Shown: positions 3,421 to 64,000 of the stretch, piece after piece
Position numbering within the stretch: the first letter of the stretch is position 1
Layout: each line of letters begins with the position of its first letter
Assembly (NCBI GenBank): GCA_964036665.1
Contig: OZ038528.1
Location: 6,144,501 to 6,208,500, forward strand
Reading direction: 5' to 3'
Length of the DNA stretch: 64,000 nt
From: Gordius sp. MW1
Taxonomy: Eukaryota; Nematomorpha; Gordioida; Gordea; Gordiidae
Position numbers and translations under genes: made by a program
The notes under the pieces: generated by a model
The model's database searches: none
Seen by the model: only the letters and a program-made list of their open reading frames with translations
What the model was told of the DNA's origin: nothing

Positions 3421-4510
3421 AATGCTATGCAATTTATGGGCTCCCTTTTTGGTGTCCGACCGTCCGTTGTCCGCCCGTCCGTTGTCCGTCTTTCCAACGT
3501 TTTGACTTGCTGGTTCGATACCCGGAGAGGTTTTTAAATTAAATTAATATTTTGTTCTTGTTAATACCAATGATTGACCGTTTGCTGGCTATTGACCAAT
3601 TAAAAAAAAGGCCCATTGGCCAAATTGTGAATCGAAATTTTTAATTGCTATGCAATTAATGGGCTCGTTTTTTGTTGTCCGTCCGTTACCCTCCAAGTTA
3701 TTGGCGCCAGCTTTATGACCTGGAGGTCTTGAGTTCAAGCCAAGGAGAGGACGAATTTTTTTATGAATTTTTGACCGTCCGCTGGCTACTGACCAATAAA
3801 AAATTACCATTGGCCAAATAAATCGAATTTTTTTTGAAACTGGCCGGGAAATGTCCGATATTTTTAAAACGAAAAGGTATTTTAGAAATCTGAAAAAGCT
3901 ATTTCACCCTTGGCCGCCCTGGAAACCTACGGGTAAAGTTTCGAGCGAATCGGGCCGGTAGTTTCAGAATTTAGCCCTTTTTTAAAACTAAAAGGAATTT
4001 TTTTTTTACATTAAATTAATATTTTGTTCTTGTTAATACCATTAATAATATGACTTTTTGACCGTCCGCTGGCTACTGACCGATGAAATATATTGATTTT
4101 CTAAACATAAAAAACAACTTTTAATTGCTATGCAATTTATGGTATTATTTCATTATCTATATAAATAACATAAAAACTTCTTCTATTTTAAAACCAGCAT
4201 GGTGTGACGGGTTATAGCGCCGGCTTGTAAACAGTTGCCTTTACTGATGTGGGTTCGAATCCCGGAGAGGGCAAAATTTTTATTTTTTTTTAAATTAAAT
4301 TAATATATTGTTCCTGTTAATAACATTGATGATATGACTTTTTTACCGTCCGCTGGCTGACCAATGAAAAAATGACCATTGGCCAAATAAATCGAACTTT
4401 TTTTTTCCGTTTTGAATTGGCTAACATTGATAATTACCCTATGCCCTCCCCTACAAGGGTCTATAACTAATTATTTTGCATTTAGAAATTCTCGCCCCTT
4501 CCCACCTTTC
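3421..4510 (+). mobile_element. Modular Helentron-like repeat, 3'-truncated
   Basis: It begins with the family 5' end (GCTATGCAATTTATGGGCTC) and GTCC/GTCCG microsatellite. Next come a tRNA-like segment with a B box (GGTTCGAATCC at about 4249-4259), several ~120-bp core units with the CCAATG...CCATTGG inverted pair, and the start of the 3' module (ctcgccccttcccaccttt). It stops abruptly at about 4510, fused to the interior of a hAT element; this junction is the left edge of the segmental duplication. No coding capacity. Confidence 0.65.
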
Positions 4511-6423
4511 TATTTAATGGCAAAGTAAGTTAGAATTGGAAGGTAATTATTTGGAATATATATTTGATTATAATGATTTTTGTCATAAATTTAAATACGT
4601 GCGCTTCAATTAAAAATTTAAAACCTTATGTTCTTAATCCTATATAATGCTGATTTTAGTTGTTTTTACAACGTTTTAAAATTTGCAACTAGTTATCAAT
4701 TCTTTAAATAATAATACTCGCACTTTGTGGTTTACAACGCTATAGTAAACATGCAATGAACACTATGGGCTATAATTGATGATGGTACAGTTAAAACTGT
4801 TTAATTGCAAAGCCTCGGGCCAGATGAAAAATTCGATTTCCGCGATTAAACGATGGAAATAAAAGTATATGTACATTATATAAATTATTCATTTCTTACG
4901 CTTTGCAATAAAACGATATTTTAAAATTATCTGGTTGATTTAAGGACTCGAAAATGTTTGTGAATATCCGATATTGTACTGTTAAGCGATTTGTCAATAA
5001 ACGATGTTTTTGTTAGTATTATCTGTCATATCCATGAGACCCACTCCATAATAGGAAGCGCACGTAACGCGCTTTGGAAGGCGGGCTAAGAACGAAGGAA
5101 GGTCACAGAAGTTTGGGTTGTTGACAAAATAGCACAAGGATTCAGCAAAACAAAGCTATAAATTACGACTTGGCCCGAAAGAAGTAGCAGAGAGCAACAA
5201 GGATACAACAAACCCTGGTAATAAATACCGAATTGGCACAAGAAAGGTAGGGGAAAACTATAACTGTCAGTTGAAGTTTCCAAAGGCCGTGGGAAAACCT
5301 TGGAAGTTAGGGCCATTCATCACGAAATTGGGGCGGTAAAATGGGTCAAAAAGAAAAGAAGTTTCAAAAATAAAAAGTCAAGCCAGAAAAATAAAACCTA
5401 TATAAGCTCTATGAAAATCGATACACACTAGAACGTTATTTTCCGAACGTTACTCCAAATAGTTTCTTCCTCCAATACTTAAGAGAACTAGAGAATTTCC
5501 CACATTAGAATCAATTTTTCCCCCCTGTTTAATCGCTAGAAATTTATATTCCCGCGTTACCAAATAATTCCGCGTATTACATCTATCTACCTTTATCATA
5601 ATTGTATGATAGTTACTAACGAGTGTATTCGGGATATAATAAACTAATAATCGGAGTGAATTATGAAGTGTCAATTAGAATAAACAAAACAAGATAACAA
5701 AGGATAAGACCCCCGATCATCTCATCAAAGTCCTCGTTAAAATTATAGCGCGCATAACAATTTCCCCCTCTGCCCCAATACGTCCTTAAAGTTCAGAAAA
5801 CATAAAATTATCGTTTAAACAAAAAACAAAATGGCGGTTAACTTCGCGATTAAAAGATTTTCGCGATATATCAATTGACTTTAACGTTTGCCTTAAATAT
5901 GTTAAGGTCTACTTTGAAGCTTTAGCCAGAGTTAATAAAGGGTCTCAATTTGCTCAATTGTGCAACTAAGTTAGCTATAAGCGAACTTTCTCAGTCTATT
6001 TAGAGTTGACAAACCCAGAGAATTTGATAAAAATGTTATAATTTGCTAGAACATTAGAATTTAACCTTCTATACTTCAAATTTATTTATAGTTTTTTTAG
6101 TCTGCACTTTCCATGGGAAATGTTATCTTTATGAATTAATTCATATCTTTATGTTGCCAATGAGATGTAATCTTTAAAAAGTTTGTGTATTAAAGTTTTT
6201 CAAAAAATGTAAAAGTTTGCCATTTGGAATTTTTAACACTTATTTAAAATGATTTTAAACAGGAGAAATTTTTATTCCATATATATTTTTTTAAAAAAGT
6301 CGAGACGAGACCGAGATTTTTCTAGACCGAGACGAGATCAAGATTTTCATAATAGCTCCCGAGACGAGACGAGATTTTGTTTTTGAGATCGAGACGAGAC
6401 GAGAACGAAACACTACCTGTCGG
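4510..6423. mobile_element. hAT element, CGAGACGAGA family (copy B), 5'-truncated and interrupted
   Basis: It is nearly identical to 46672-47837 but lacks the left third, starting at the fusion with the modular repeat. The right end is intact (...CGAAACACTA at 6415) and followed by cctgtcgg, which equals the left TSD of copy D (45833-45840). It carries an insertion at 5024-5806 that is absent from copy D. No transposase is present. Confidence 0.8.
5018..5812. mobile_element. LTR-like insertion (possible solo LTR) with attatc duplication
   Basis: The 783-bp block 5024-5806 is absent from the paralogous site in copy 2 (around 47206), which reads straight through attatcgtttaaac. The insertion is flanked by attatc on both sides (5018-5023 and 5807-5812). 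It begins TGTCATATCC and contains a TATA-like CTATATAAG near 5399. The size, TG start and short duplication suggest a solo LTR, but the right end is not a canonical CA, so the class is an inference. Confidence 0.65.
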
Positions 6424-7289
6424 GTATTAAGATATATCAATATCAGTAAAATTGGGAAATAAAGTTAGTATATAAATTAGTAAGGGATAAGGTGTTAGGC
6501 AGAGGAATAACAAAAAATTTGTAGTTTTCAATCTAATTCCAATCTAATATTCTCTTCGGGCGCTTACTGTAGCGCTAGCGCCTTAAGTGAGACCATGCGC
6601 TCTAGCTTATAGCGCAGGCAAGTTACTATGCGCTAGAGCTTTAGGGCATACAAAGATTGACACTTTTCGCAGAGATCGACGGGATTTATTATTGATGGAA
6701 TCTGGACATTGCTATATATGAAATTACACAAAAAGAGAAAGGAACAATATGATTATTGTAATTTAGATGAGCAAATTTTTACTATACGGAAAAATTTCTA
6801 ATCTATTTGGATTTTTAAAAACAGGCTCTAAAGAGAATACTTAAGGATACGAAATCGTGTAAAGGAATTATGTTGATAAAAAAATTTAAACTCTTATAAA
6901 ATGTATTAAAAGAAAATTTTGGTGTTACAACTTAGAAAGTGTCATTAAATAGAGATTTAATCACAACTTAAGTTTTGACATAAGCTACTCAATCTAATAA
7001 AGTATAAAGCATTTGATGGAGGTTGAGAAGATTAGGAATTTTGATAATTTATATTATTTTATAAAAATCTGAGTAGTAAAAAAGAACAATAGTTGAAATA
7101 AGATTGCTAGCGACATCTTAGAAAATAATAAGAAAAATAATACACAATTTTATAATGTTAAATTTGAGGCATTATCCTTAAAAAGTTTATTCCTCAGCTA
7201 CCGCGCTGTCTTTCAATTACATATAACAAAATTGTGTAGTTTAGTAAATCATTATTATCTGATACAAGTTTCAAATTATAAAATAGTAT
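6424..7289. repeat. Duplicated flank, copy 1 (pairs with 47846-48741)
   Basis: Near-identical to copy 2 along its whole length. No convincing coding frame. The only unusual content is a GC-rich patch at about 6558-6650 with clustered GCGCTAG-type palindromes. Confidence 0.85.
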
Positions 7290-7899
7290 TAATTGCTATG
7301 CAATTTATGGGCTCGTTTTTTGTTGTCCGTCCGTCCGTCCGTTGTCCGTCCGTCCGTCCGTCCCTATCTGTTTGCATTGGGTATATTAGGTTATCGATTT
7401 TTTAAATTAATGCATGAGAAAGAGGTGCCCCACCCCTCATCTATATCTCCCTCGCTTTCGGGCGGGGTCGGGTTTTAATTGCTATGTTAAATTAATGCAT
7501 AAGTATATCTATTCGTTTTTGAATTGGGTAACATTGATATTAATTGCTATAATTACCCTATGCCCTCCACTACAAGGGCCTATGCCTCCACTGATATGGG
7601 TCCCTGTGCCCCTACAAAAGCCTATGCCTCTATTAATGTGGGTTCGAACCCCGGCGAACGTTCTGAATTGCTGGTTCGATTCCCGGAGAGGGCAAAATTT
7701 TTTTTTTATTTTTTAAATTAATTTAATATATTTTTCCTGTTACTACCATTGATAATATGACTTTTTGACCCTCCGCTTGTTCTATTATTGTTTCATTTTA
7801 TTATATAATAAAGATAAATAAAAGTTGTTTACTTTTAATTGCTATGCAATTTAACTAGTTTTTGGGTTAGAATCCCGGAGTATTTTTGACTCTTATGAT

Positions 7900-8570
7900 T
7901 GTACTTGTTACTATCATTGATAATAAGACTTTTTAGCCGTCCGCTGGCTGCTGACCAATGAAAAAAATGACCATTGGCCAAAATGTGAATCCGAGTTTAT
8001 TTTTTCGTTTTTTTTGACTATTATGATTGTTCCTGTTACTACCATTGCTATTATAACTTTTTGGCCGTCCGCTGGCTCCTGACCGATGGAAAAAATGACC
8101 ATTGGCAAAAATGTGAATCGAAATTATTTTTTTCGTTTTTTTTGACTATTATGATTGTTCCTGTTCCTACCATTGCTATTATAACTTTTTGGCCGTCCGC
8201 TGGCTGCTGACCAATGGAATAAAATGACCATAGGGCAAAATGTGATTCGAAATTTTTTTTTTCGTTTTTTTTGACTATTATGAATTTATATCCACTTTTA
8301 CCGTGTCCTTGCTGCTGACCAATGGAAAAAAATGACCATTGGCCAAAATGTGATTCGAAAATTTTTTTTTCGTTTTTTTTACTCTTATGAATTTATATCC
8401 ATTTTTACCGTGTGCAGGCTGCTGACCAATGGAAAAAAATGACCATTGGCCAAAGTGAGCATCAAATTTTTTTTTCCGTTTTTTTGGCTATCATTGACTT
8501 ATAGAGTATCTGTTGGTACTGACCAATGGAGAAAAAATGACCATTCACCAAATTTTTGATTTTTTTAATT
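7900..8570 (+). repeat. Tandem ~120-bp core units with CCAATGG/CCATTGG hairpin
   Basis: Successive units share a gccgtccgctggct-like block, then tgaccaatgg, a short A-rich loop and gaccattggcca, followed by a poly-T/ttcgttttttt spacer. The CCAATGG and CCATTGG arms are preserved in most units while spacers drift, suggesting that the paired arms matter or are copied by conversion. Similar arrays occur at 15330-16025, 39000-39670 and 61430-62270. Confidence 0.85.
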
Positions 8571-8955
8571 AAAAATTGTTCAAATTCACAAAAATTTCTC
8601 CGACAATTCTGCAAATTCTTAACATTGTGATGTTTTATAATATAATGTTTGTTAGACCCATAATCACTAAAGGCCGTAAAAACTAATGTAATACGCAACT
8701 AGATGCAAACACTAAATCTAACCCTAACCCTTGCCTATATTACATTTTGCCTATATAACTTTTTGCCTATAAATGGAAAATTTGTATAAATAATTAATTA
8801 ATCATTAGGCATTTAATACCCCCCTATAGGCATTCTCGCCCCTTCCCACCTTTCTCGCCCATAAATTGCATAGCAAATATGATACATTTATACGAAGTAA
8901 AGATGAGTCGTCCCCCCTTCCCTTCCCCCCTTCCCTTCTCCCCTCCCCCTTCCCA

Positions 8956-8974
8956 CGAGGGCCGAAGGCCCTCG
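8956..8974 (+). other. GC-rich terminal hairpin of the Helentron-like family
   Basis: CGAGGGCC and GGCCCTCG form a perfect 8-bp stem with a GAA loop, directly before the element's 3' end. Shorter-stem versions (GGGCC-GAA-GGCCC) close the copies near 21921, 41805 and 44440. Confidence 0.85.
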
Positions 8975-9050
8975 TTTTAATATTATTGATCTATTGTAAA
9001 GCATTTGTTATAAATCATTTAAATAATTAACATTAGTTTGTTTTGCTAAT

Positions 9051-11632
9051 TTTTCCTAGGTCCTTGCTGATTGAAAATAAAAATAATTACAAATATATAG
9101 TCAATATATTTATAAATTTGTTAATATTTATAAAATAGTAGAATTACCATTTGAGTTAATATGTTTTTTCCTTTCGAAATTAAATTAATCTTTCGTTTCC
9201 TTGCTGATTGAAAATATAAAATAAATACAAATATATAGTAATTATGTTTATAAATTTGTTAATATTTATAAAATAGTAGAATTACCATTTGAATCAATAT
9301 GTTTTTTCCTTTCGAAATTAAATTAATCTTTCGTTTCCTTGCTGATTGAAAATAAAAAAAAATTACAAATATATAGTAAATATGTTTATAGATTTGTTAA
9401 TATTTATAAAATAGTAGAATTACCATTTGAATCAATATTTTTTTTCCTTTCGAAATTACATTAATCTTTCGTTTCCTTCTTGGAGTGAAAATAAAAAAGA
9501 AATTACAAATAAATAGTAAATATGTTTATAAATTGGTTAATATTTATAAAATAGTAGAATTACCATTTGAATCAATATGTTTTTTCCTTTCGAAATAAAT
9601 TTAATCGTTCGTTTCCTTGCTGATTGGAAATAAAAAATAATTACAAATATATAGTAATTATGTTTATAAATTTGTTAATATTTATAAAATAGCAGAATTA
9701 CCATTTGATTAAATATGTTTTTCCTTTCGAAATTAAATTAATCTTTCGTTTCCTTGCTGATTGAAAATAAAAAAGAAATTACAAATATATAGTAAATATG
9801 TTTGTAGATTTGTTAATATTTATAAAACTGTAGAATTACCATTTGAATCAATATGTTTTTTCCTTTCGAAATTAAATTAATCTTTCGTTTCCTTGCTGAT
9901 TAAAAATAAAAAATAATTACAAATATATAGTAATTATGTTTATAAATTTGTTAATATTTATAAAATAGTAGAATTACCATTTGAATCAATATGTTTTTTC
10001 CTTTCGAAATTAAATTAATCTTTCGTTTCCATCTTGGAGTGAAAATAAAAAAGAAATTATAAATAAGTAGTATATAAATTTGTTAATATTTATAAAATAG
10101 TAGAATTACCATTTGAATCAATATGTTTTTTCCTTTCGAAATTAAATTAATCTTTCGTTTCCTAGCTGATTGAAAATAAAAAATAATTACAAATATATAG
10201 TAATTATGTTTATAAATTTGTTAATATTTATAAAATAGTAGAATTACCATTTGAATTAATATGTTATTTCCTTTTGAAACTAAATTAATCTTTCGTTTCC
10301 TTGCTGATTGAAAATAAAAAAGAAATTACAAATATATAGTAAATATGTTTATAAATTTTATAAGCTTTATAAAATAGTAGAATTACCATTTGAATCAATA
10401 TGTTTTTTCCTTTCGTAATTGAATTAATCTTTCGTTTCCTTGCTGATTGAAAATAAAAAAGAAATTAGAAATATATAGTAAATATGTTTATAAATTTGTA
10501 AATATTTATAAAATAGTAGAATTACCATTTGAATCAATATGTTTTTTCCTTTCGAAATTAAATTAATCTTTCGTTTCCTTGCTGATTGAAAATAAAAAAT
10601 AATTACAAATATATAGTAATTATGTTTATAAATTTGTTAATATTTATAAAATAGTAGAATTACCATTTGAATCAATATGTTTTTTCCTTTCGAAATTAAA
10701 TTAATCTTTCGTTTCCTTGCTGATTGAAAATAAAAAAGAAATTACAAATATATAGTAAATATGTTTATAAATTTGTTAATATTTATAAAATAGTAGAATT
10801 ACCATTTGAAGCAATATTTTTTTTCCTTTCAAAATTAAATGAATCTTTCGTTTCCTTGCTGATTGAAAATAAAAAAGAAATTACAAATATATAGTAAATA
10901 TGTTTATAAATTTGTTAATATATATAAAATAGTAGATTTACCATTTTAATCAATATGTTTTTTCCTTTCGAAATTAAATTAATCTTTCGTTCCCTTCTTG
11001 GAGTGAAAACAAAAAAGAAATTACAAATAAATAGTAAATATGTTTATAAATTTGTTAATATTTATAAAATAGTAAAATTATCATTTGAATCAATATGTTT
11101 TTTCCGTTCGAAATTAAATTAATCTTTCGTTTCCTTGCTGATTAATAAAAAATAATTACAAATATATAGTAATTATGTTTATAAATTTGTTAATATTTAT
11201 AAAATAGTAGATTTACCATTTTAATCAATATGTTTTTTCCTCAAAATTAAATTAATCTTTCGTTTCCTTGCTGATTGAAAATAAAAAAGAAATTAGAAAT
11301 ATATAGTAAATCTGTTTATAAATTTGTAAATATTTATAAAATAGTAGAATTACCATTTGAATCAATATGTTTTTTCCTTTCGAAATTAAATTAATCTTTC
11401 GTTTCCTTGCTGATTGAAAATTAAAAAGAAATTACAAATATATAGTAATATGTTTATAAATTTGTTAATATTTATAAAATAGTAGAATTACCATTTGAAT
11501 CAATATGTTTTTTCCTTTCGAAATTAAATTAATCTTTCGTTTCCTTGCTGATTGAAAATAAAAAAGAAATTAGAAATATACAAAATATGTTTATAAATTT
11601 GTAAATATTTATAAAATAGTTGAATTACCATT
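9051..11632 (+). repeat. Satellite array, ~138-bp monomer, forward orientation (copy 1)
   Basis: About 19 head-to-tail monomers of 135-140 bp. Landmarks are ttgctgattgaaaataaa, tagtagaattaccatttg and cctttcgaaattaaattaat. Some monomers carry a cttggagtg variant (near 9478, 10029 and 10996), hinting at higher-order units. Short frames across the array follow the monomer period and are not genes. Confidence 0.95.
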
Positions 11633-12838
11633 ACTATTTTATTAATCTTAACAAACTTATAAACATATTTACTATATATTTGTAATTTCTTTTTTATTTT
11701 CAATCAGAAAGGAAACGAAAGATTAATTTAATTTCGAAAGGAAAAAAAATATTGATTCAAATGGTAATTGTACTATTTTATAAATATTAACAAATTTATA
11801 AACATATTTACTATATATTTGTATTTCTTTTTTATTTTCAATCAGCAAGGAAACGAAAGATTAATTTAATTTTGAAAGGAAAAAACATATTGATTCAAAT
11901 GGTAAATCTACTAGTTTATAAATATTAACAAATTTATAAACATAATTACTATATATTTGTAATTATTTTTTATTTTCAATCAGCAAGGAAACGAAAGATT
12001 AATTTAATTTTGAAAGGAAAAAACATATGATTCAAATGGTAATTCTACTATTTTATAAATATTAACAAATTTATAAACATATTACTATATATTTGAAATT
12101 TCTTTTTTATTTTCAATCAGCAAGGAAACGAAAGATTAATTTAATTTTGAAAGGAAAAAACATATTGATCCAAATGGTAAATCTACTAGTTTATAAATAT
12201 TAACAAATTTATAAACATAATTACTATATATTTATAATTATTTTTTATTTTCAATCAGCAAGGAAACGAAGGATTAATTTAATTTCGAAAGGAAAAAACA
12301 TATTGATTCAAATGGTAATTCTACTATTTCATAAATATTAACAAATTTATAAACATATTTACTATATATTTGTAATTTCTTTTTTATTTTCAATTAGCAA
12401 GGAAACGAAAGATTAATTTAATTTCGAAAGGAAAAAACATATTGATTCAAATGGTAATTCTACTATTTTATAAATATTAACAAATTTATAAACATATTTA
12501 CTATATATTTGTAATTTCTTTTTTATTTTCAATCAGCAAGGAAACGAAAGATTAATTTAATTTCGAAAGGAAAAAACATATTGATTCAAATGGTAATTCT
12601 ACTATTTCATAAATATTAACAAATTTGTAAACATATTTACTTTACTATATATTTGTAATTTCTTTTTTATTTCAATCAGCAAGGAAACGAAAGATTAATT
12701 TAATTTCGAAAGGAAAAAAACATATCGATTCAAATGGTAATTCTACTATTTTATTAATCTTAACAAATTTATAAACATATTTACTATATATTTGTAATTT
12801 CTTTTTTATTTTCAATCCAAGAAGGAAACGAAAGAGTA
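11633..12838 (-). repeat. Satellite array, inverted block (copy 1)
   Basis: At about 11633 the same monomer switches to the reverse complement and continues for about nine units to 12838. The junction itself is a small inverted repeat (ataaaatagt / actattttat). The corresponding array in copy 2 never changes orientation, so this is a copy-1 inversion. Confidence 0.93.
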
Positions 12839-12841
12839 ATT

Positions 12842-12896
12842 TAACCGAGATAGTTAAATGCAACAGCCTTGCTTAGATCGTCCCTTAGGAGCATTC
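12842..12896 (-). other. Conserved block between satellite and unknown gene; possible 3' exon
   Basis: This ~50-bp block is conserved in copy 2 (about 56793-56849) although the satellite beside it differs. On the minus strand it follows acceptor-like AG dinucleotides, and two reading frames are open in both copies: one gives a MLLRDDLS-like peptide, the other a basic peptide ending near a CCI or equivalent. Only the second is in phase with the donor at 13115. It may be the next exon of the gene upstream, but this is an inference. Confidence 0.3.
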
Positions 12897-13114
12897 CTAT
12901 TTTTCTTTGTAAAAATATTTGCATTTTCATGATTCTAATTTATATCAAAATAAACAACGATTTTTTAAATATATGCATAGATAGTATTATATTAGATATG
13001 TTTATATTGCATAAGTGTATTTTATTAAATAGTATGTAAAGTTATTAAATTATAAAGGATAATTTTATATAACAACAATGAATATTTATTAAAAAAATCA
13101 GAACCAATACTTAC

Positions 13115-14497
13115 GTAGTCCTCATTGGGAAACAAATTGTCATAAATGTATGTTATTCTTTCGCGATATTTTATATGTTTGTCCGATATGTAGCCCTTGT
13201 CTATTAGAGACAATTGACTGCTAGTAAGTGAAAGGACAGGGAGGTGTTGTTTGCGCGGGGAAGTTGGAAACTCAATCGAATCAGTATTACTTGACTTTAT
13301 TTCAACGGACACGCTTTCAATATTAATATCATCATTCTCTTCGTTTAAATTTAATTTTATCAGTTGTCTGTTCTCTATCTTTTCGCCACTTCGTTTTTCT
13401 ACACCGCTTTCAATTTCGTGTTCTTCTAAGCCGTAATTCATTTCTAGTGTCGGCTGCTTCATAATGGTAGGTTCTGGAGGCCATGCGCCATCCAAATGTA
13501 CGCCCAGTATTGGCATTAACTTGGGATAGTCTGCAGCATATCTTTCCAATCTGTTTAGGAGCAGGATCATTCGCCTCTTAATCCTCTTTGTCATCAGTAT
13601 ATTTATCCAATGTTTTATCAAGTGCAACGTTAGTATTAATTATGGGTTTGGAATTAATGGAGTCTGCAATTTTTTCTTCTGCGGCTGGCTTGTTGAGAGC
13701 AGCACATAATTTGAGCAATTGGTTGTACATCTCAGATCCAACTTTATCATGTATTTTAGCATCACACTTCTCTTGATATTCCTTTTCATTTTCATTCTTT
13801 TCATCCTCATTTTTCCACTTTACCAATTTATTTACTGCCTTTCTAGGGTCTTTATTACTTTTCCGAATACTCGTAATACGAACTTTATCATATTTAGCTT
13901 GATAGAGGGTGAAATTTTTTGGATCATCATCTACTTCAAACATATCATTATCTATAGTTAGATCGCTCTCGCCATCATTTCTTGCCTCATCATCGTTATT
14001 TGGCTTCCCTTTTCCATCTTCCATTTCAACTGTATAACTTTCTGAATTTTGGTTAAATTCCTCTTCTATTTCCTGGGACTCCATGGCGTTATCGTGTTCT
14101 CTGACATCATCCTCGTATATCCAATTTAATTCAGCCATTCGATTTGTCAAAACTCGCCATATCTCATTTTTTTAATTATCTCGTTCTCTAACATAAAATA
14201 TCCATCAATGGCGTTATGCTCATTGTTAGAATTACTAGTTCCAGGCTGTTCTTCATTTGTCATTTTTCTTTTCTTTGTTAAATTTATGTTATGTAAGAAT
14301 CTTCTTATCTTATTCAAACCTCCATTCTTACTACTTTTCCCAGCAACTTTTTCTTGGCTATCACTGTCTTTATTCAAAACTTTTTTCATGTTAAAAATCA
14401 TTCCTTCGTTCTCTTTAGCTTTCGCTCTTGCATATGAGGACCCATCTTCACTATTTTTTACATTTTTGCATTTAAAGAGTTTACCAAAGTCAAACAT
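13115..14497 (-). pseudogene. Unrecognised acidic-protein gene, decayed copy 1
   Basis: I do not recognise the family. The frame starts at the ATG at 14497 (MFDFGKLFKCKN...), is rich in Asp, Glu, Asn, Lys and Ser, and has no signal peptide or membrane segment. The most conserved-looking part is a proline-containing stretch (YPKLMPILGVHLDGAWPPEP) and a C-terminal ERITYIYDNLFP. The exon ends at a strong donor, TAC|GTAAGT, at 13115/13114. Compared with the paralogue at 57063-58452, this copy is broken in three places: a 7-base instead of 8-base T run (14167-14173, plus strand), an in-frame stop at 13578-13580 where copy 2 has Gln, and a 2-base loss near 13543. Copy 2 is intact at each of these, so a single open ancestor existed. 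Function unknown. Confidence 0.7.
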
Positions 14498-14916
14498 CAC
14501 AAGCAAATTTTTTTACAATGAACTTAACAACAATTCAATAACTTGTATAGAAATGACGTTTAATTAATATGCTTAAGTGATTGTTGTTAATATAATTAAG
14601 TAATACATAAATTTAATGGCTGATTTGTTTTATAAAACATTGTAACTTTATTATTTAATATCCCTTTTCTAAATGAATTCTGCGGGTATTAATGATAGAA
14701 TCCCTATACCGCATAAAAAATTGGCGTTCCTTAATTAATAGATGTAATAAATAACTACTGTTTGTATAAGCTTTAAAAGAGGTGCCAGTTTTGAGGGGGT
14801 GAATCTAGATAATATAATGATTATTTTATATGGAGATGCGTTGCGTGTTTGAAATTAAGGTTTTTAGTTATAAGAAATCATTCTATCACAACCTTTTTAT
14901 AATAAATTTAAATCTT
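14498..14916. repeat. Duplicated spacer containing an LTR-element empty site
   Basis: No gene. The sequence aaatttaatggctgattt at about 14613-14631 is the uninterrupted form of the site that in copy 2 holds the LTR element 58575-60633. The rest matches 58453-58574 and 60639-60937. Confidence 0.85.
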
Positions 14917-18150: not shown

Positions 18151-18387
18151 ATGGGTGAAAAGGCAAACAATAGTGATTTTGATGGGAAAAGTTGGGATGA
18201 AAGACGCCACAAAGCATTTGCAAATGATAGAATGAAGGATGTTATTTTTTGGTAATTTAAAATCATTATAATTGCCATTATACCCACTCAATTTGAAGAA
18301 GGTGATAAAATTATTACGATTAAGGCACACAAGTTAATACTGTCCTTAAGCTCTTCAGTATTTTATCTGACATTTTTAAATTAAATG
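18151..18387 (+). pseudogene. BTB/POZ-domain fragment with in-frame stop
   Basis: From the ATG at 18151 one frame reads to the stop at about 18385, with a single internal TAA at 18253-18255. The first part ends NDRMKDVIFW and the second contains AHKLILSLSSSVF. These match the start of a BTB/POZ domain (NDxxSDVxFxV ... AHKxxLxxxSxVF), most like BTBD3/6-type proteins that act as Cullin-3 substrate adaptors. The domain stops after its first third, with no visible donor to continue it. It is most simply a decayed fragment just outside the duplicated segment. An intron spanning the stop is less likely, because the frame is preserved across it. Confidence 0.6.
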
Positions 18388-18765: not shown

Positions 18766-18775
18766 GGGAGGCTGG

Positions 18776-35570: not shown

Positions 35571-35574
35571 GGTG

Positions 35575-48800: not shown

Positions 48801-48820
48801 TTTGCTAATTTTTCCTAGGT

Positions 48821-50985: not shown

Positions 50986-51088
50986 CAGGGGTTTGTCCCG
51001 AACCCGAACCCGTGAACCCGAACCGGGTAAAACCCGATGATTTACAGAACCAGAACCCAAACCCGAACCCATTTTTAAAAATACCCTT

Positions 51089-51141
51089 AAAACCCGAACC
51101 CGAACCCAATAAATACAAAAAAGGGTTCGGGTTCGGGTTTT
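51089..51141. other. 19-bp perfect hairpin in the hAT left subterminal region
   Basis: AAAACCCGAACCCGAACCC at 51089-51107 and its exact reverse complement at 51123-51141 are separated by a 15-base A-rich loop. Built from the same GAACCCG unit found at both element ends. Confidence 0.85.
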
Positions 51142-51346
51142 TAATTCAAAAATATATTGTGAATTGAATATCTCAGTTTTCTCTATCATGACAATGTAAC
51201 GAAACGAAGAAAACCATATGATTTTAATTTCAATATTTTTATTTATCCGGCATTTTTCATTCATTAATCAATACTAATTATCTCAAGAATTATTTGTAAG
51301 TATTATATATATAATTGATATATATTAGTTATGGTATATAGTCTAA

Positions 51347-53209: not shown

Positions 53210-53256
53210 TTTATGTGTCAACTGTATTTATATTTAATGATGTGAAGTATACGTTG

Positions 53257-53262
53257 AATAAA
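53257..53262 (+). terminator. Polyadenylation signal of the hAT transposase
   Basis: AATAAA about 48 bases after the stop codon, in the expected position. Confidence 0.6.
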
Positions 53263-53619
53263 AATATTTTGTAATTTAGAATATGGTATGGCTTTTATTA
53301 ATTATATTTTTATTGCTTTTAAATCCAAAAATAAATTAGAACATTAAAAATTCAATAAATACATATGCACTGAAATAATTAACATGTGAATTTAATTAGG
53401 TGCTATTTAAAAATTAAGTTAACTATTCAATAATTTTTTGAAGGTAAAAATGTATTATTAGTATAATAAAATTTCTTGAACCCGAACCTGTACCCGAACC
53501 CGAACCCAATTCCTTAAACCGAACACGAACCCAAACCCGAACCCAATTCCTTAAACCGAACACGAACCCGAACACGAACCCGATTTTTTTTTGGGCGGGT
53601 TCAAACCCCTGGAATTACC

Positions 53620-55362
53620 ATTTGAATCAATATGTTTTCCTTTCGAAATTAAATTAATCTTTCGTTTCCTTGCTGATTGAAAATAAAAAATAAATTACAA
53701 ATATATAGTAAATATGTTTATAAATTCGTTAATATTTATGAAATAGTAGAATTACCATTTTAATCAATATGTTTTTTCCTTTCGAAATTAAATTAATCTT
53801 TCGTTTCCGTGCTGATTGAAAATAAAAAAGAAATTACAAATATATAGTAAATATGTTTATAAATTTGTTAATTTATAAAATAGTAGAATTACCATTTGAA
53901 TCAATATGTTTTTTCCTTTCGATTAAATTAATCTTTCGTTTCCTTCTTGGAGTGAAAATAAAAAAGAAATTACAAATAAATAGTAAATATGTTTATAAAT
54001 TTATAAATATTTATAAAATAGTAGAATTACCATTCGAATCAATATGTCTTTTCCTTTCGAAATTAAATTAATCTTTCATTTCCTTGCTGATTGAAAATAA
54101 AAAAGAAATTATAAATATTAGTAAATATGTTTATAAATTTGTTAATATTTAAAAAATTGTAGAATTACCATTTAAATCAATATGTTTTTTCCTATCGAAA
54201 TTAAATTAATCTTTCGTTTCCTTCTTGGATTGAAAATAAAAAAGAAATTACAAATATATAGTAAATATGTTTATAAATTTGTTAATATTTATGAAATAGT
54301 AGAATTACCATTTGAATCAATATGTTTTTTCCTTTCGAAATTAAATTAATCTTTCGTTTCCTTGCTGATTGAAAATAAAAAAGAAATTACAAATATATAG
54401 TAAATATGTTTATAAATTTTATAAGCTTTATAAAATAATAGAATTACCATTTGAATCAATATGTTTTTTCCTATCGAAATTGAATTAATCTTTCGTTTCC
54501 TTGCTGATTGAAAATAAAATAGAAATTAGAAATATATAGTAAATATGTTTATAAATTTGTAAATATACATAAAATAGTAGAATTACCATTTGAATCAATA
54601 TGTTTTTTCCTTTCGAAATTAAATTAATCTTTCGTTTCCTTGCTGATTGAAAATAAAAAAGAAATTACAAATATATAGTAAATATGTTTATAAATTTGTT
54701 AATATTTATAAAATAGTAGAATTACCATTTGAATCAATATGTTTTCCTTTCGAAATTAAATTAATCTTTCGTTTCCTTGCTGATTGAAAATAAAAAAGAA
54801 ATTACAAATATATAGTAAATATGTTTATAAATTTGTTAATATTTATGAAATAGTAGAATTACCATTTGAATCAATATGTTTTCCTTTCGAAATTAAATTA
54901 ATCTTTCGTTTCCGTGCTGATTGAAAATAAAAAAGAAATTACAAATATATAGTAAATATGTTTATAAATTTGTTAATATTTATAAAATAGTAGAATTACC
55001 ATTCGAATCAATATGTCTTTTCCTTTCGAAATTAAATTAATCTTTCATTTCCTTGCTGATTGAAAATAAAAAAGAAATTATACATATTAGTAAATATGTT
55101 TATAAATTTGTTAATACTTAAAAAATTGTAGAATTACCATTTAAATCAATATGTTTTTTCCTTTCGAAATTAAATTAATCTTTCGTTTCCTTCTTGGATT
55201 GAAAATAAAGAAGAAATTACAAATATGTAGTAAATATGTTTTTAAATTTGTTAATATTTATGAAATAGTAGAATTACCATTTGAATCAATATGTTTTCCT
55301 TTCGAAATTAAATAAATCTTTCGTTTCCGTGCTGATTGAAAATAAAAAAGACTTATATATAA
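53620..55362 (+). repeat. Satellite array (copy 2, middle part)
   Basis: About 13 monomers in the same orientation and register as before the hAT insertion. Variant monomers with cttggagtg or cttggattg recur, and a set with cattcgaatc/tatgtcttttcc appears twice (about 54030 and 55010), indicating duplication of multi-monomer blocks. Confidence 0.95.
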
Positions 55363-55602
55363 CACACCGAGGGAGATAGAGATGAGGGGTGGGGCACCTC
55401 TTATGCATTAATTTAAAAAATAACACAGCGAGGGAGATAGAGATGAGGGGTGGGGCACCTCTTTCTCATCCATTAATTTAAAAAAGCGATAACCTAATAT
55501 ACCCAATGCAAATAGATAGGGTAACGGACGACGGACGACGGACGACGGACGACGGACGACGGACACCAAAAAACGATCCCATAAATTGCATAGCAATTAA
55601 AA
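55363..55602 (-). mobile_element. Helentron-like 5'-end fragment inserted in the satellite
   Basis: In reverse orientation: the 5' end (TTGCTATGCAATTTATGGGA) is at 55600, followed inward by five GTCGTCC-type units, the gggtatattaggttatcg-like segment and two gaggtgccccacccctcatc modules. It ends near 55363 without the core units or hairpin. It interrupts one monomer, whose two halves flank it. Confidence 0.75.
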
Positions 55603-56680
55603 TTACAAATATATAGTAAATATGTTTATAAATTTGTTAATATTTATGAAATAGTAGAATTACCATTTGAATCAATATGTTTTTTCCTTTCGAAATTAAA
55701 TTAATCTTTCGTTTCCTTCTTGAATTGAAAATAAAAAAGAAATTACAAATATATAGTAAATATGTTTATAGATTTGTTAATATTTAAAATAAAGTAGAAT
55801 TACCATTTGAATCAATATGTTTTTTCCTTTCGAAATTAAATTAATCTTTCGTTCCCTTCTTGGATTGAAAATAAAAAAGAAATTACAAATATATAGTAAA
55901 TATGTTTATAAATTTGTAAATATTTATAAAATAGTAGAATTACCATTTGAATCAATATGTTTTTTCATTTCGAAATTAAATTAATCTTTCGATTCCTTGC
56001 TGATTGAAAATATGGAAGAAATTACAAATATATAGTAAATATGTTTATAAATTTGTTAAGATTAATAAAATAGTAGAATTACCATTTGAATCAATATGTT
56101 TTTTCTTTTCGAAATTAAATTAATCTTTCGTTTCCTTCTTGGATTGAAAATAAAAAAGAAATTACAAATATATAGTAAATATGTTTATAAATTTGTTAAT
56201 ATTTATAAAATAGTAGAATTACTATTTGAATCAATATGTTTTTTCCTTTCGAAAATAAATTAATCTTTCGTTTCCTTTTTGGATTGAAAATAAAAAAGAA
56301 ATTACAAATATATAGTAAATATGTTTATAAATTTGTTAAGATTAATAAAATAGTAGAATTACCATTTGAATCAATATGTTTTTTCCTTTCGAAATTAGAT
56401 TAATGTTTCGTTTCCTTCTTGGATTGAAAAATAAAAAACAAATTACAAATATATAGTAAATATATTTATATATTTGTTAAGATTTATAAAATAGTAGAAT
56501 TACCATTTGAATCAATATGTTTTTTTCCTTTCGAAATTAAATTAATCTTTCGTTTCCTTGCTGATTGAAAATAAAAAAGAAATTACAAATATATAGTAAA
56601 TATATTTATAAATTTGTTAATATTTATAAAATAGTAGAATTACCATTTGAATCAATATGTTCTCCTTTCGAAAATAAGCA
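55603..56680 (+). repeat. Satellite array (copy 2, right part)
   Basis: About eight monomers, mostly with the cttggattg variant, ending at ctcctttcgaaaataa. Orientation unchanged, in contrast with the inverted end of the copy-1 array. Confidence 0.93.
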
Positions 56681-57062
56681 TTATTTTTACAACAGGCTTG
56701 ATTTTTAATATTCATTTTGAAATAATGTTTTGTTTTAAAAGAGTTTTTGACTATATACATATTTTTGTTATAACATTTATCGAATCCTAACACAACCGAG
56801 ATAGCCAAATGCAACAGCCTCGCTTAGATCGTCCCTTAGGAGCATTCCTATTTTTCTTTGTAAAAATATTTGCATTTTCATGATTCTAATTTATATCAAA
56901 ATAAACAACGATATTTCAATATATGCGTAGATAGCATATTAGATATGTTTATATTGCATAAGTCTATTTTATTAAATAGTAAGTAAAGTTATTGAATTAT
57001 AAAGGATAATTTTATATAACAACAATGAATATTTATTAAAAAAAATCAGAACCAATACTTAC
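56681..57062. other. Spacer with conserved block adjoining the unknown gene
   Basis: 56681-56792 is unique to copy 2. 56793-57062 matches 12842-13114 and includes the candidate exon block (minus strand, about 56849-56793) and the intron start after the donor at 57062. Confidence 0.6.
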
Positions 57063-58452
57063 GTAGTCCTCATTTTTGGGGGGAAACAAATTGTCATAAA
57101 TGTATGTTATTCTTTCGCGATATTTTATATGTTTGTCCGATATGTAGCCCTTGTCTATTAGAGACAATTGACTGCTAGTAAGTGAAGGGACAGGGAGGTG
57201 TTGTTTGCGCGGGGAAGCTGGAAACTTGATCGAATCAGTATTACTTTGCTTTATTTCATCACTTTCAATATTAATATCATCATTCTCTTCGTTTAAATTT
57301 AATTTTATCAGTTGTCTGTTCTCTATGTTTTCGCAACTTCGTTTTTCTACACCTCCTTTAGTTTCGTGTTTTTCTAAGCCATAATTCATTTCTAGTGTCG
57401 GCTGCTTCATAATGGTAGGTTCTGGAGGCCATGCGCCATCCAAATGTACGCCCAGTATTGGCATTAACTTAGGATAGTCTGCAGCATATCCTTTTCCAAT
57501 CTGTTTAGGAGCAGGATCATTCGCCTCTTGATTCTCTTTCTCATCAGTATATTTATCCAATGTTTTATCTAGTGCAACGTTAGTATTAATTATGGGTTTG
57601 GAATTAATGGAGTCTGCAATTTTTTCTTCTGCGGCTGGCTTGTTGAGAGTAGCACCTAATTTGAGCAATTGGTTGTACATCTCAGATCCAACTTTATCAT
57701 GTATTTTAGCATCACACTTCTCTTGATGTTCATTTTCATTCTTTTCATCCTCATTTTTCCACTTTACCAATTAATTTACTGCCTTTCTAGGGTCTTTATT
57801 ACTTTTCAGAACACTCGTAATACGAACTTTATCATATTTAGCTTGGTAGAGGGTGAAATTTTTTGGATCATCATCTACTTCAAACATATCATTATCTGTA
57901 GTTAGATCGCTCTCGCCATCATTTCTTGCCTCATCATCGTTATTTGGCTTCCCTTTTCCATCTTCCATTTCAACTGTATAACTTTCTGAATTTTGGTTAA
58001 ATTCCTTTTCTATTTCCTGGGACTCCATGGCGTTATCGTGTTCTCTGACATCATCTTCGTATATCCAATTTAATTCATTTAATTCAGCCATTCGATTTGT
58101 CAAAACTCGCCATATCTCATTTTTTTTAATTATCTCGTTCTCTAACATAAAATTTCCTTTCAATGGCGTTATTCTCATTGTTAGAATTACTAGTTCCAGG
58201 CTGTTCTTCATTTGTTATTTTTCTTTTCTTTGTTAAATTTATGTTATGTAAGAATCTTCTTATCTTATTCAAACCTCCATTCTTACTACTTTTCCCAGCA
58301 ACTTTTTCTTGGCTATCACTGTCTTTATTCAAATCTTTTTTCATGTCAATAATCATTCCTTCGTTCTCTTTAGCTTTCGCTCGTGCATATGAGGACCCAT
58401 CTTCACTATTTTTTACATTTTTGCATTTAAAGAGTTTACCAAAGTCAAACAT
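57063..58452 (-). pseudogene. Unrecognised acidic-protein gene, decayed copy 2
   Basis: Paralogue of 13115-14497, with the same ATG (58452) and the same TAC|GTAAGT donor (57063). This copy has two lesions of its own: an extra base near 58158 that shifts the frame early, and an in-frame TAA at 57771-57773 where copy 1 has Lys. It also has a 6-base in-frame insertion near the C-terminus and a short in-frame duplication (NELNELN-like) near 58070. It is intact at all three sites where copy 1 is broken. The longest remaining frame is 244 codons (57770-57036). The product would be about 450 residues in this exon, soluble and highly charged, function unknown. Confidence 0.7.
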
Positions 58453-58574
58453 CACAAGCAAATTTTTTTACAATGAACTTAACAACAATTCAATAACTTG
58501 TATAGAACTGACGTTTAATTAATATGCTTAAGTGATTGTTGTTAATATAACTAAGTAATACACAAATTTAATGG
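58453..58574. repeat. Duplicated spacer up to the LTR insertion
   Basis: Matches 14498-14622. Ends with the TSD aatgg (58570-58574). Confidence 0.85.
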
Positions 58575-59113
58575 TATTCTATACCGAAGAAAGTATTGGT
58601 ATAGAATTTTGCTTGAGTTTATTGAATAATCTAGTTTTCGAATAATTTAATTATCGAGTTTGCTGCCGCAACTCTTATTTCCATTTCCACTAATTTATTT
58701 AGAATTCCAATTAATATATTCCATAGGGACGTATTATAAACCTCAAAAGGATTTTTTTGAATTTGCTTTCGCCTTTAATATTACATCTTTTTTCAATTTA
58801 TTTATTTGGTTACAACGAGAGAAAAAAAAATTATATATGAATTAATTAATAATCAACGTAGTTAGGTAATCTTAAATATATTTGCTAAATCATGGTGATA
58901 ATAATATCTATATGCGATCGCGATGGAAATAAAAAGCGAAGTGGTATAAACAATCTATTTTTAGCGCAGTGGCAACACTGATGACTACGTGTAAAGTAAA
59001 TCTGACGCAATTAAGATCGAGCGTAAGGTAAAATAAAAATGCATATAATTTAAATCGTAGCATGCATGGGGGGGGGGGGGGGGGGAAGAATTAGAATATG
59101 GGTGAACACCACA
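58575..59113 (-). repeat. LTR, left copy
   Basis: 539 bp, near-identical to 60075-60633 except for a G-run length difference and a ~25-bp block missing after tattata at about 58737. Confidence 0.93.
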
Positions 59114-60074
59114 CCTCCCCATTTAATGAGAAGTCAAAGACTTAAAGTCCTAACGTTCCGATAAAGGTACAGGGGTAACAATTCTTTTGGTTAGAGGTCG
59201 AGGCGGATTTAGCTAAGTGTCGAGATGGCGATTTACCTTATCTATTTTATACAAAATACCGTAGGTATAACACACAATATAATTTTCAAACATTTTCTGA
59301 AATCTAGCCCAAAATTAATATAGTTTCTGCTGGCCATGTTGTGACAAGTTCTGCCTTTGCCCTCGGAACTGATTCATGGACAACTGATTTCAATGAAATC
59401 CTGCCCTCTGAATTAGTTATAAAATGGGGTGCTTCACGGCTACAAGACTCAGCGTCCCCGCTCTCTAAAACACCACTGGGCAATCGCGATGCCACTATGG
59501 ACTCAGCTTTAAAACTACAAATTTTATCTAAATTAACCCACAGGCTGTACCGCTTTACCTTAATTTTATACCTGCACTGTCAATCGTCATTTTATACATT
59601 ATAATCGCCACCCCTTTCTAATTTAATATAAGCAAGCTTCACAGACTGCCAAATAATAATCAAAGAAAACGCGGGGGGGGGGGGGGGGGTTTAACATCAA
59701 CCATATCATCGTTATATAATAATATGTGAGAGAGAAAAAAAAACATGTGTATATTTTGTCTTACAACAATTTTTAAGCATCGAATAATTTGTGTGAATAT
59801 ATTTTCCTACTGTTGTAATTCAGTTTGGGTTTTCTCTCGAATCGCTCTATTTTTACTTTGTTGCTAAAATAATCGGTGCGAAAATTGAAGAATATTTCTT
59901 GCAATGAATTAAAGAATTATGTCTGCCTTGGTTGCGGTTTAAATTTGTTAACCAATCGTTCGAATGAATTCCATAAATATGGGTTCGGGATTACTGATAC
60001 GATGTTGTTTAAATTCCTGAGGGTTTTAGGTGGGTATGTTCTGAGGGTATGGGAACATCCTTTCTGACACCATT
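59114..60074 (-). other. Internal region of the non-autonomous LTR element
   Basis: Overlapping frames of 63 and 87 codons on opposite strands at 59304-59604 show no recognisable motif. G-runs occur near 59672. No protein assigned. Confidence 0.45.
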
Positions 60075-60633
60075 TATTCTATACCGAAGAAAGTATTGGT
60101 ATAGAATTTTGCTTGAGTTTATTGAATAATCTAGTTTTCAAATAATTTAATTATCGAGTTTGCTGCCGCAACTCTTATTTCCATTTCCACTAATTTATTT
60201 AGAATTCCAATTAATATATTCCATATGGACGTATTATAATTCTAAGAAATATATCCGCGCGCGAAAATCCTCAAAAGGATTTTTTTGAATTTGCTTTCGC
60301 CTTTAATATTACATCTTTTTTCAATTTATTTATTTGGTTACAACGAGAGAAAAAAAAATTATATATGAATTAATTAATAATCAACGTAGTTAGGTAATCT
60401 AAAATATATTTGCTAAATCATGGTGATAATAATATCTATATGCGATCGCGATGGAAATAAAAAGCGAAGTGGTATAAACAATCTATTTTTAGCGCAGTGG
60501 CAACACTGATGACTACGTGTAAAGTAAATCTGACGCAATTAAGATCGAGCGTAGGGTAAAATAAAAATGCATATAATTTAAATCGTAGCATGCATGGGGG
60601 GGGGGAAGAATTAAAATATGGGTGAACACCACA
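60075..60633 (-). repeat. LTR, right copy
   Basis: 559 bp. It carries an extra segment with tccgcgcgcgaaaa near 60250 relative to the left LTR. Confidence 0.93.
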
Positions 60634-60638
60634 AATGG

Positions 60639-60937
60639 CTGATTTGTTTTATAAAACATTGTAACTTTATTATTTAATATCCCTTTTCTAAATGAATTTT
60701 GCGGGTATTAATGATAGAATCCCTATACCGCATAAAAAATTGGCGTTCCTAAATTAATAGATGTAATAAATAAATACTCTTTGTATAAGCTTTAAAAGAG
60801 GTGCCAGTTTTGAGGTGGTGAATCTAGATAGTATAATGATTATTTTATATGGAGATGCGTTGCGTGTTTGAAATTAAGGTTTTTAGTTATAAGAAATCAT
60901 TCTATCACAACCTTTTTATAATAAATTCAAATCTTAT
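60639..60937. repeat. Duplicated spacer, copy 2 (pairs with 14623-14916)
   Basis: Near-identical to copy 1. No gene. Confidence 0.85.
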
Positions 60938-62830
60938 TAATTGCTATGCAATTTATGGGCTCGTTTTTGGTTGTCCGTCGTCCGTCGTCCGTCGCCCACA
61001 AAGTTATTGGCGTCAGCTTTGTGACCTGGAGGTGTCGGGTTCAAGCCAGGGAGAGGACAAATTTTTTTTTAATTTTTTTAAGTTAAATTAATATATTGTT
61101 CTTGTTAATACCATTGATAATATGAATTTTTGACCGTCCGCTGGTTACTGACCAATGAAAAAAATGACCATTGGCCAAATAAATCGAAATTTTTAATTGC
61201 TATGCAATTTATGGTATTTTTTCGTCATTGAATAGGTTAACATTGATAATTACCCTATTCCCTTTCCTACAAGGGCCTACGCCTCTACTGATATGGGTCC
61301 CTGTGCCCCTTACCAAAGCCTATGCCTTTATTGATATGGGTCCCTGTGCCTCTTACCAAACCCTATGCCTTTACTAATGTGGGTTCGAATCCCGGAGAGG
61401 GCAAAATTTTTATTTATTTTTTAAATTAAATTAATAAATTGTTCTTGTTAATACCATTGATAATATGGCTTTTTGGTCGTCCGCTGGCTTCTGACCAATG
61501 AAAAAAATGACCATTGGCCAAAATGTGAATCGAAATTTTTTTTTCGTTTTTGAATTGGTTAACATTGATAATTACCCCATGGCCTCTCCTACAAGGGCCT
61601 ATGCCTATACTGATACGGGTCCCTGTGCCCCTACAAAAGCCTATGCCTCTACTGATGCGGGTTCGAATTCCGGAGAGGGAAATTTTTTTTTTTTTTTTTT
61701 TAAATTAAATTAATATATTGTTCTTGTTAATACCTTTGATAATATGGCTTTTTGGTCGTCCGCTGGCTACTGACCAATGAAAAAATGACCATTGGCCAAA
61801 TTGTGATTCGAAATTTTTTTTCGTTTTTTTTTAAATTAATTTATTGTTTTTGTTAATACCATTGATTATATGACTTTTTGACCGTCCGCTGGCTACTGAC
61901 AAATAAAAAAAGTCACCATTGGCCAAATTGTGAGCCGAAATTTTTTTTCGTTTTTTTTTGTCAAATTAATATATTGTTTTTGTTAATACCATTGATAATG
62001 TGAACTTTTTGACCGTCCGTTGGCTGCTGACCATTGAAAAAAATCACCATTGGCCAAAGTGTGAATCAAAAATTTTTTTTCGTTTTTTTTGACTCGTATG
62101 TATTTATAGACCGTCTATTGTTACTGACCAATGGAAAAAAATGACCATTGACCAAATTGTGATTTGAAATTTTTTTTTCGTTTTTTAATCGTCTCTTATG
62201 TATTTATATCCTTTTTCACCGTGTCCTGGCTACTGACCAATGAAAAAATTGACCAATGGCCAAATTATTTTTAAGTATCTTTCTAATTATTTTTTAAAAT
62301 AATAATGATATTAAATCAAAATTTAAACCATATGTATATTTTTCCATAAGGCAAAAGTAAATTCAAAAAAGCAATTAATTTTGTTTAGAAAAATTAAAAT
62401 TCGCATTTTGTCAAAATTTTAATCAAAAAATTACATGTATATATAAACTTTTTATAACTGCTTTAAAGTCTTTGATGTAACATAACGATAATATTTTAAC
62501 CATTTTAATTGTAATCGAAATCAGGAGGGCAATTATTATTATCACGTGGTCGATCATAGAGGCATATTTTTTATAATTATCCATCCTTCAATTAATTATT
62601 TTATTATATTAAAGAAGAAATTGTGAATCGAAATTTTTAATTGCTATGCAATTTATTTTTTTCGTTTTTGAATTGGTATATTAAGTTAACATTGATAATT
62701 ACCCTATGCCCTCTTCTAGAAGGGCCTATGCCTCTACTGATATGGGTCCCTGTGCCCCCCCCCCTACAAAAGTCTATGCCTCTACTGATGTGGGTTCGAA
62801 TCCCGACGAGGGCAAATCATATTTTTAGAT
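60938..62830 (+). mobile_element. Helentron-like modular repeat array (copy 2)
   Basis: Paralogue of 14917-16580. It gains a module at 61190-61420 (second gctatgcaatttatgg plus two B-box-type segments, GGTTCGAATCCC at 61382), resembling 38755-38940, and lacks one core unit present at 15720-15830. Core hairpin units run 61430-62270. The final short module with a B box ends near 62815. Non-coding. Confidence 0.65.
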
Positions 62831-64000
62831 GGTTACTAACTAAATGCATACAAAATTAATATATTGTTTTGTTACAAGTAAAGGCTAAAATTTCAAAATG
62901 CTTCTCCCAAAATCACCCACCCCACATCTCTATGCCTACATGCCATCCTTTATGAACAGATAATTTTTTATCCTCTTACAATATATTTCTTTATCCAATA
63001 CATACCCCTATCTTACCCTCTTTTCAAAAGTTGTAACATAAAAAAATATTAAGTTACCGAAACAAAATGACTCCAAACCTACCATATAACCTACCATATA
63101 ATGTGAAAAGATGCTTGTTAAAATTCATATTAACAATATAGCTAAATATAAATACTTATTAAGTATTAATTATTATAACAAGCAATTTAAGGCCCTATTA
63201 GTAGGAAGCTTGATTCACGGCAAAAAAAAAATTTATTTCATCTATAATTTTACCGGCTGAATATAACCATAGTCTAAACTCTAAAGAAAAAAAATATATC
63301 ACCTAAACTCAAGTCTAAGGCAAATATTCGAAATTTAAACAAATACTATAAGATATTTTTGGTAAGTTATTGAAAAATTCATATTTTCACACTATACCTA
63401 TTAACTTTAATAATTTTTTGAAATATGGCATGGGTCACCCTTTGGGCCACCCTTAAAACCAACAACAAAATTATCTTGTCAAATTCTTTTAAGTTCATCC
63501 CGCCTTAATAATTATTATGTGATAAAAATTAAGAAATATAAAATTAATTTTTAAGAATAAGAAGCTATAAAAGCACTTTTCCTTCCATCCATCTATTTCT
63601 ACCGATCACTATGTCGCTGTCTCATCCTAGATATACGTCGTAAAACAACAAGCACGATTAGTTTTACATTTTTTATAACCCCAGATGTCATAATTTAAAT
63701 TATACCCTTCCTTAGGAATATGCTCTTTTTTTCTTAATTTTATAATTTCCGTGAATTTAAAATGATTAAAAATTTTGGCTGTTTTAGAAATTCTCAAATT
63801 TTTCGCGCAATTCTAAAGAAGTTAAGTAAGTAACTCTTTTTACAAAATAATATTGTTTTTACCCTTGCGTGTCTTTTCCCTTAGACTTAAATACTTTAAA
63901 TCAAATAAACAATTGCTTCAGTTTACACATTACTTTGATAATAGGAAATCTTAATTAATTAATATAGCGGTTTTAATTTATATTTGTGTTAAATATTGTT
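62831..64000. repeat. Duplicated AT-rich spacer, copy 2, running off the window
   Basis: Matches 16581-17757, including the TATAAAAG box at 63566-63573. No gene. Similarity continues to the last base, so the duplication extends beyond the window. Confidence 0.85.

Follow-up and report, generated by a model that had tools for sequence, protein, structure and literature searches.

Two direct copies of a composite, transposon-rich segment flanking a kinase gene in Gordius sp. MW1

Segmental duplications, or low-copy repeats, are defined as stretches of at least 1 kb with at least 90% identity. The two blocks described here, A and B, resemble intrachromosomal duplications of this type in size, in an identity of about 97%, in lying on the same chromosome and in having edges rich in transposons, but differ from them in that the A/B core is small, much of each block is transposon-derived and a locus-specific tandem array is included. 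Matches of at least 1 kb at 90% identity or more connect the blocks, and these include a gene and an inner flank which are not dispersed. Taken together, A and B look like an ordinary, fairly recent segmental duplication of a well-known kind, not like a new mobile unit. This young duplication is well preserved, so that the order of events can be read from the transposon insertions which are common to both blocks or private to one of them.

Two other known systems bear on the locus. An element private to block B shares with hAT DNA transposons a dimerisation domain, the terminal inverted repeat (TIR) CAGGGGTTTG and an 8-bp target site duplication (TSD), but it is a passenger acquired after the duplication, not the cause of it. 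Interstitial telomeric repeats occur at repaired breaks; similarly, TTAGGGTTAGGG is located at a chimeric junction in a genome whose telomeres are TTAGGG, but here there are two units at one junction, and no ancestral empty allele was seen.

Extent and contents of the blocks

The window, i.e. the whole analysed stretch of 64,000 nucleotides, is C2:6144501-6208500, and it was inspected within the wider region C2:6134501-6264500 (-9999 to 120000 on the scale of the window). Genome searches covered an assembly of 211.8 Mb in 12 contigs, including C12 (14,798 bases) with an open frame that is presumably cytochrome-b-like. Rfam and tRNA scans of the window gave no match. In self-BLAST, with the tandem arrays masked for the segments outside them, A (14.7 kb) and B (18.8 kb), lying 27 kb apart, appeared as a colinear chain of direct matches:

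4510..19196, plus strand: block A, starting within a hAT-like element; the right repeat resumes past the block
46672..64000, running on to window-scale 65446 (C2:6209946, 1.4 kb past the window), plus strand: block B
A 4510-5023 and B 46672-47207, same orientation: matched segment 1
A 5807-7293 and B 47202-48747, same orientation: matched segment 2
A 9061-12844 and B 48820-56677: matched array segment
A 12856-14619 and B 56807-58574, same orientation: matched segment
A 14615-15465 and B 60634-61551, 87% identity: matched segment, modular repeat
A 15447-19196 and B 61679-65446, same orientation: matched segment

Counting gaps, identity between the segments was 91-95%, except for the 87% of the modular repeat at 14615-15465. 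When arrays, private insertions and B 61040-61380 were excluded, substitutions were found at 250 of 8159 aligned sites (3.1%); by segment the differences were 19/509, 43/1480, 50/1748, 13/392, 47/892 (modular repeat), 74/3003 and 4/135. Divergence was therefore 2.5-3.7% per segment outside the modular repeat and 5.3% within it, where mis-registered repeat units may be a source of the excess. This likeness is not due to chance, because five random sequences, generated by a first-order Markov model with the dinucleotide usage of the window, had best matches of just 21-40 bases. The self-alignment thus bears out the proposal, made in the sequence-only reading, of two near-identical blocks in direct, colinear arrangement. 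The ends given there, 17757 and 64000, reflect the edge of the window and not the end of a block, as homology reaches 19196 and 65446.

The blocks consist, from left to right, of a hAT-like element, an inner flank, a 138-bp array, a minus-strand gene, modular repeats, a dispersed right repeat and a long terminal repeat (LTR):

4510..6415, plus strand: shared hAT-like element in A, lacking its 5' end, broken by an insertion at 5024 and flanked 3' by CCTGTCGG
45841..47837, plus strand: shared hAT-like non-autonomous element in B, complete, 2.0 kb, 8-bp TSD CCTGTCGG/CCTGTAGG, with dispersed copies elsewhere
6416..7293 in A and 47838-48747 in B, plus strand: inner flank, with A and B the only matches listed above 90%
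9061..12844: 138-bp tandem array in A, 9061-11632 direct and 11632-12844 inverted
48820..56677, plus strand: 138-bp tandem array in B, interrupted by two insertions
12856..14619, minus strand: degenerate gene of unknown kind in A
56807..58574, minus strand: degenerate gene of unknown kind in B
15010..16040 in A and about 61380-62276 in B, plus strand: modular 128-bp-type repeat
16040..19062 in A and 62276-65312 in B, plus strand: right dispersed repeat
19062..19332: LTR palindrome in A, two truncated LTRs, head to head
window-scale 65312-65481: the one LTR kept in B, full length

Two components had been described as common to both blocks in a form that holds in part. The hAT-like element is indeed common to A and B, but the intact hAT with a transposase (50986-53611) belongs to B only. 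The satellite array is likewise present in both, but the right 1.2 kb of it in A is inverted relative to B. The array of A flips its orientation at 11632, and a related array on contig C7 also has segments on both strands.

Relatives of the degenerate gene comprise an open frame of 501 codons on C3 (77% DNA identity; extracted sequence L025, 3217-4719) and degraded copies on C4 and C1. The degenerate gene had no Pfam match at 0.1 or better (the best, at E 0.13, fell below the cut-off) and no NCBIfam match at 0.01, and the C3 frame, which encodes an unknown protein, had none above the cut-off in either database. Compared with the C3 frame, copy A carries three frameshifting indels (one of them at its final codons) together with a single premature in-frame stop, and copy B has one frameshifting indel and one premature stop. 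Except for a terminal stop that comes one codon early in each, A and B have none of these disruptions in common, so that the gene was possibly still intact at the time of the duplication and may have decayed independently in the two blocks.

Common descent and copy number

Insertions occupying the same site in both blocks indicate how they arose. The hAT-like element sits in the same 8-bp target in A and B, the 3' flank of the A copy, CCTGTCGG, being identical to the 5' TSD of the B copy. The LTR was inserted at an identical base of the right repeat in both blocks, and three other copies of this repeat, on C7, C8 and C3, continue without the LTR. Among the 42 listed matches (40 of 124 candidates scored), it is only in A and B that the match runs past the LTR into the right repeat by more than 13 bases. 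By distance alone, A and B are barely closer to each other in this repeat (64/3001) than either is to the copies on C7, C8 and C3 (2.5-3.0%): A differs from them at 77/2972, 75/2953 and 74/2751 sites, respectively, and B by 81-89 differences. In the alignment of the five copies, 12 columns divide two against three, and A and B are paired in 10 of them, C7 and C3 in one and C8 and C3 in one. A partial copy on C2, with 922-937 comparable sites and differing by 3.6% from A and by 4.6% from B, was left out of these counts. From the two common insertion sites and ten common substitutions, it follows that A and B are products of one duplication, not of two insertions.

How many copies the genome holds depends on the part considered. 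The outer, transposon-derived parts of the blocks are multi-copy, and the gene, the inner flank and the array are not. The gene was found at 95-100% in A and B only, with no further match of more than 200 bases above 77% (all 13 candidates scored). The inner flank, searched with the sequence beyond the end of the hAT-like element, exceeds 90% in A and B only and has one 76% match, on C7, among the matches listed (40 of 1773 candidates scored). For the 138-bp array, all 120 listed matches fall in A, in B or in a C7 relative (C7:4225481-4232936, 75-86%), which has the 76% relative of the inner flank on the same side; the gene was not found at that locus in the genome search. Two copies of the core argue for a local two-copy segmental duplication instead of a multi-copy block or a large mobile element. 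The suggestion that the unit might be a much longer repeat or occur in many copies is thus not borne out by the genome-wide counts, which give two core copies, with A and B as the only ones above 90%.

The same counts bear on the idea that a single large composite mobile element was inserted twice, as A and as B, with the gene and the array as its cargo. Such an element would be consistent with the dispersal of the outer parts in many copies and with the constant order and orientation of the components. We regard it as extremely unlikely, since the gene (all 13 candidates scored) and the inner flank (40 of 1773 candidates scored) exceed 90% in two places only and the left and right repeats also occur apart. 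Three right-repeat copies were checked for a left part (matches of at least 250 bases above 80%): none was present within 5.4 kb upstream of the copy on C8 or within 4.3 kb upstream of that on C3. The third copy, on C7 (2.85-2.87 Mb), has both left and right repeats but neither gene nor array. Moreover, the blocks end without element termini and target duplications, and no more than two copies of the core were found.

It is therefore the single segmental duplication, by a local duplicative rearrangement in transposon-rich DNA, that we consider the probable origin of A and B. The ancestral segment would have held the hAT-like element, the inner flank, the 138-bp array, the gene (perhaps intact), the modular repeats, the right repeat and a Gypsy-type LTR. 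It would have been duplicated once, locally; private insertions and about 3% of substitutions have accumulated since. That the process was a local rearrangement and not transposition of the block is inferred from the block ends, which are not element ends: A starts inside the hAT-like element, and B ends at an inverted-repeat structure of LTRs.

A diverged locus on C7 (C7:4220975-4232936 and C7:4235142-4235765) has the inner flank and the array ordered as in A and B. It also contains a 93% match to 21950-22241 of the window, in the same order and orientation and far closer than the 76% flank.

Block edges and the kinase locus

The edges of the blocks differ in what they retain. To the left of 4510, A has the end of a modular repeat, and B instead extends into the complete hAT-like element. 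To the right of 19196, A continues with a second, inverted part of the LTR, after which the right repeat resumes. Block B ends in a full-length LTR of 170 bases, 98% identical to that of L037, a 4.25-kb element with 166-bp terminal repeats and RVT_1, RT_RNaseH, Integrase_H2C2 and rve domains in Gypsy order. The LTR at 19062 and 65312 is assigned to the Ty3/Gypsy type through this relative, A and B carrying LTR sequence only; B has it complete, A in a truncated and inverted form. A match at 1183-1563 was considered as the lost left part of A and dismissed for its identity of 72.5%. The right end of B was also considered as the centre of a MITE palindrome, which was ruled out by L037, where the sequence is a Gypsy-type LTR of 166-170 bp.

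Beyond the LTR of B there follow a short inverted piece of the sequence that comes after the LTR (identified by eye), then TTAGGGTTAGGG and then a truncated copy of a related repeat. Counting both strands, TTAGGGTTAGGG occurs once in the 130 kb, at window-scale 65508-65519, and in none of 200 shuffles of the extracted sequence (L013) which holds the right end of B and has TTAGGGTTAGGG at 1508-1519. The CCCTAA repeats at the starts of C1, C2 and C8 indicate that the telomeres are TTAGGG and that TTAGGGTTAGGG is a telomere repeat. The sequence further to the right (65522-68145) is related to the Gypsy-type element of L037 (65%). Its 97% match to the neighbour of an inverted arm described below was dropped as evidence, because it is a dispersed repeat with at least 44 matches (40 of 510 candidates scored).

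Less surely, from one junction read partly by eye, it may be proposed that the inverted LTRs formed a fragile palindrome, near the axis of which the right end of B broke, and that a short telomere-type filler then linked the broken end to a truncated Gypsy-type copy. No homologous repeat pair that would point to recombination between repeats was found at both block ends.

The region between and beyond the blocks contains the following features:

32649..34184, minus strand: kinase gene, coding pieces 33243-34184 and 32649-33071
22871..35615: arm 1 of an inverted duplication with the kinase (DNA comparison)
window-scale 106970-114214: arm 2 of the same inverted duplication
23591..28485: LTR retrotransposon-like insertion, present in arm 1 only; clean empty site in arm 2, with a single target AATAC

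Both coding pieces of the kinase matched Pfam PF00069, and its best PDB relatives were GCN2, CIPK23 and Aurora, with MAP3Ks also found. The motif DFGCS is Mos-like, and mos, the label of the sequence-only reading, stands here as a putative name. When the genome was searched with the first piece, 10 matches were obtained, one of them the piece itself. They include a second intact copy of 313 codons (C2:6252885-6253823, opposite strand), with 95% of residues identical to the first piece, and a decayed copy in four pieces at C2:6218087-6219293, between the intact ones, inverted and 13-17% diverged; the remaining four matches are distant (26-35%). The kinase gene was thus copied at least twice at this locus, the two intact inverted copies and the decayed one all lying within about 76 kb. 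The intact copies are 74 kb and the arms 71 kb apart. The arms differ at 237/7157 sites (3.3%), or 10/715, 36/982 and 191/5460 by segment (1.4%, 3.7% and 3.5%), so that the inverted kinase duplication has a divergence similar to that of A and B.

Between the intact kinase copies, the second coding piece differs by 1 nonsynonymous and 6 synonymous changes. Constraint is weaker in the first piece, with about 14-18 nonsynonymous versus 8 synonymous changes (dN/dS 0.5-0.6), and the joined coding parts give a dN/dS of about 0.30, the splice point being approximate. Should the kinase be Mos, the presence of two intact copies would permit a test of dosage or of a subdivision of roles in egg maturation. 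A brief check of the literature for Mos paralogues returned nothing relevant among the sources it touched, and no claim about what is in print is intended. A more far-reaching scenario, in which a break of the inverted-LTR palindrome was healed with telomere-type sequence and repeated breakage drove serial duplication of an oocyte-meiosis kinase, giving two functional Mos-like genes that differ by a few percent, seems to us improbable.

The flanks allow two further explanations to be weighed. The first takes A and B for allelic haplotypes that the assembly joined in error; a heterozygosity of 3% is conceivable in an invertebrate. However, the left flanks of A (14.5 kb examined) and B have only repeats in common. 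The right flanks (54 kb examined) share, repeats aside, only inverted sequence, which corresponds to the decayed kinase copy (13-17%) and to the second arm, 41 kb past B. Each block also has private insertions with target duplications, and the 130 kb of C2:6134501-6264500 contain no N. The differing outer flanks and the complete lack of N make an allelic join very unlikely.

The second is a tandem duplication of greater length, which took in the kinase and later lost both its outer edges and the second copy of the kinase. The direct orientation of the blocks, with natural inner and broken outer edges, speaks for it. As the natural right edge survives in A and the natural left edge in B, at least one later loss is needed under the single local duplication as well, whichever way the copying went, and simple copying from an intact source is insufficient. 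On the other hand, the sequence to the right of B, up to 120000, has just two direct matches of at least 250 bases to the spacer (19332-46672), and both are repeats (355 and 466 aligned bases, 75% and 82%). The second intact kinase lies in inverted orientation, as does the copy in between, which is also decayed and has diverged further (13-17%). Uniqueness of the spacer is itself uninformative at 21950-22870 and 41850-44350, as these parts are mostly dispersed repeats. We hold the longer tandem to be unlikely, though deserving some weight, and prefer the single local duplication of the A/B segment.

Insertions private to one block

The sequence-only reading had also held that the copies evolved apart, and this agrees with the private insertions found in each block, mostly with clean empty sites in the sister block and with target duplications:

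50986..53611, plus strand, B only: intact hAT transposon, 620-aa transposase at 51347-53206, 8-bp TSD GAATTACC, TIR CAGGGGTTTG
55352..55599, B only: small insertion in the array, 0.25 kb
58575..60633, B only: LTR-like insertion flanked by direct repeats, 2.06 kb, TSD AATGG
5024..5807, A only: insertion of a dispersed repeat, TTATC flanks
7293..8976, A only: modular-repeat insertion flanked by TTAA; B reads TTTA there

The direct repeats of 58575-60633 differ at 6/531 sites (1.1%), less than A and B do, as expected for an insertion later than the duplication. In the inverted duplication, the terminal repeats of 23591-28485 differ at 4/550 sites (0.7%), which is also below the divergence of the duplications.

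The intact hAT element of B has an 8-bp TSD, TIRs and a protein with a hAT dimerisation domain above the Pfam cut-off and a BED zinc finger below it (E 0.044). Its 1863-bp frame has at least 12 full-length matches in the genome, 7 of them at the top score (identical, including the copy in the window) and 5 one step below, along with at least 18 shorter ones, 557 bases long at 97% (scoring covered 40 of 115 candidates). With at least six other copies identical over the open frame, this element is very young genome-wide, and it may be active at present.
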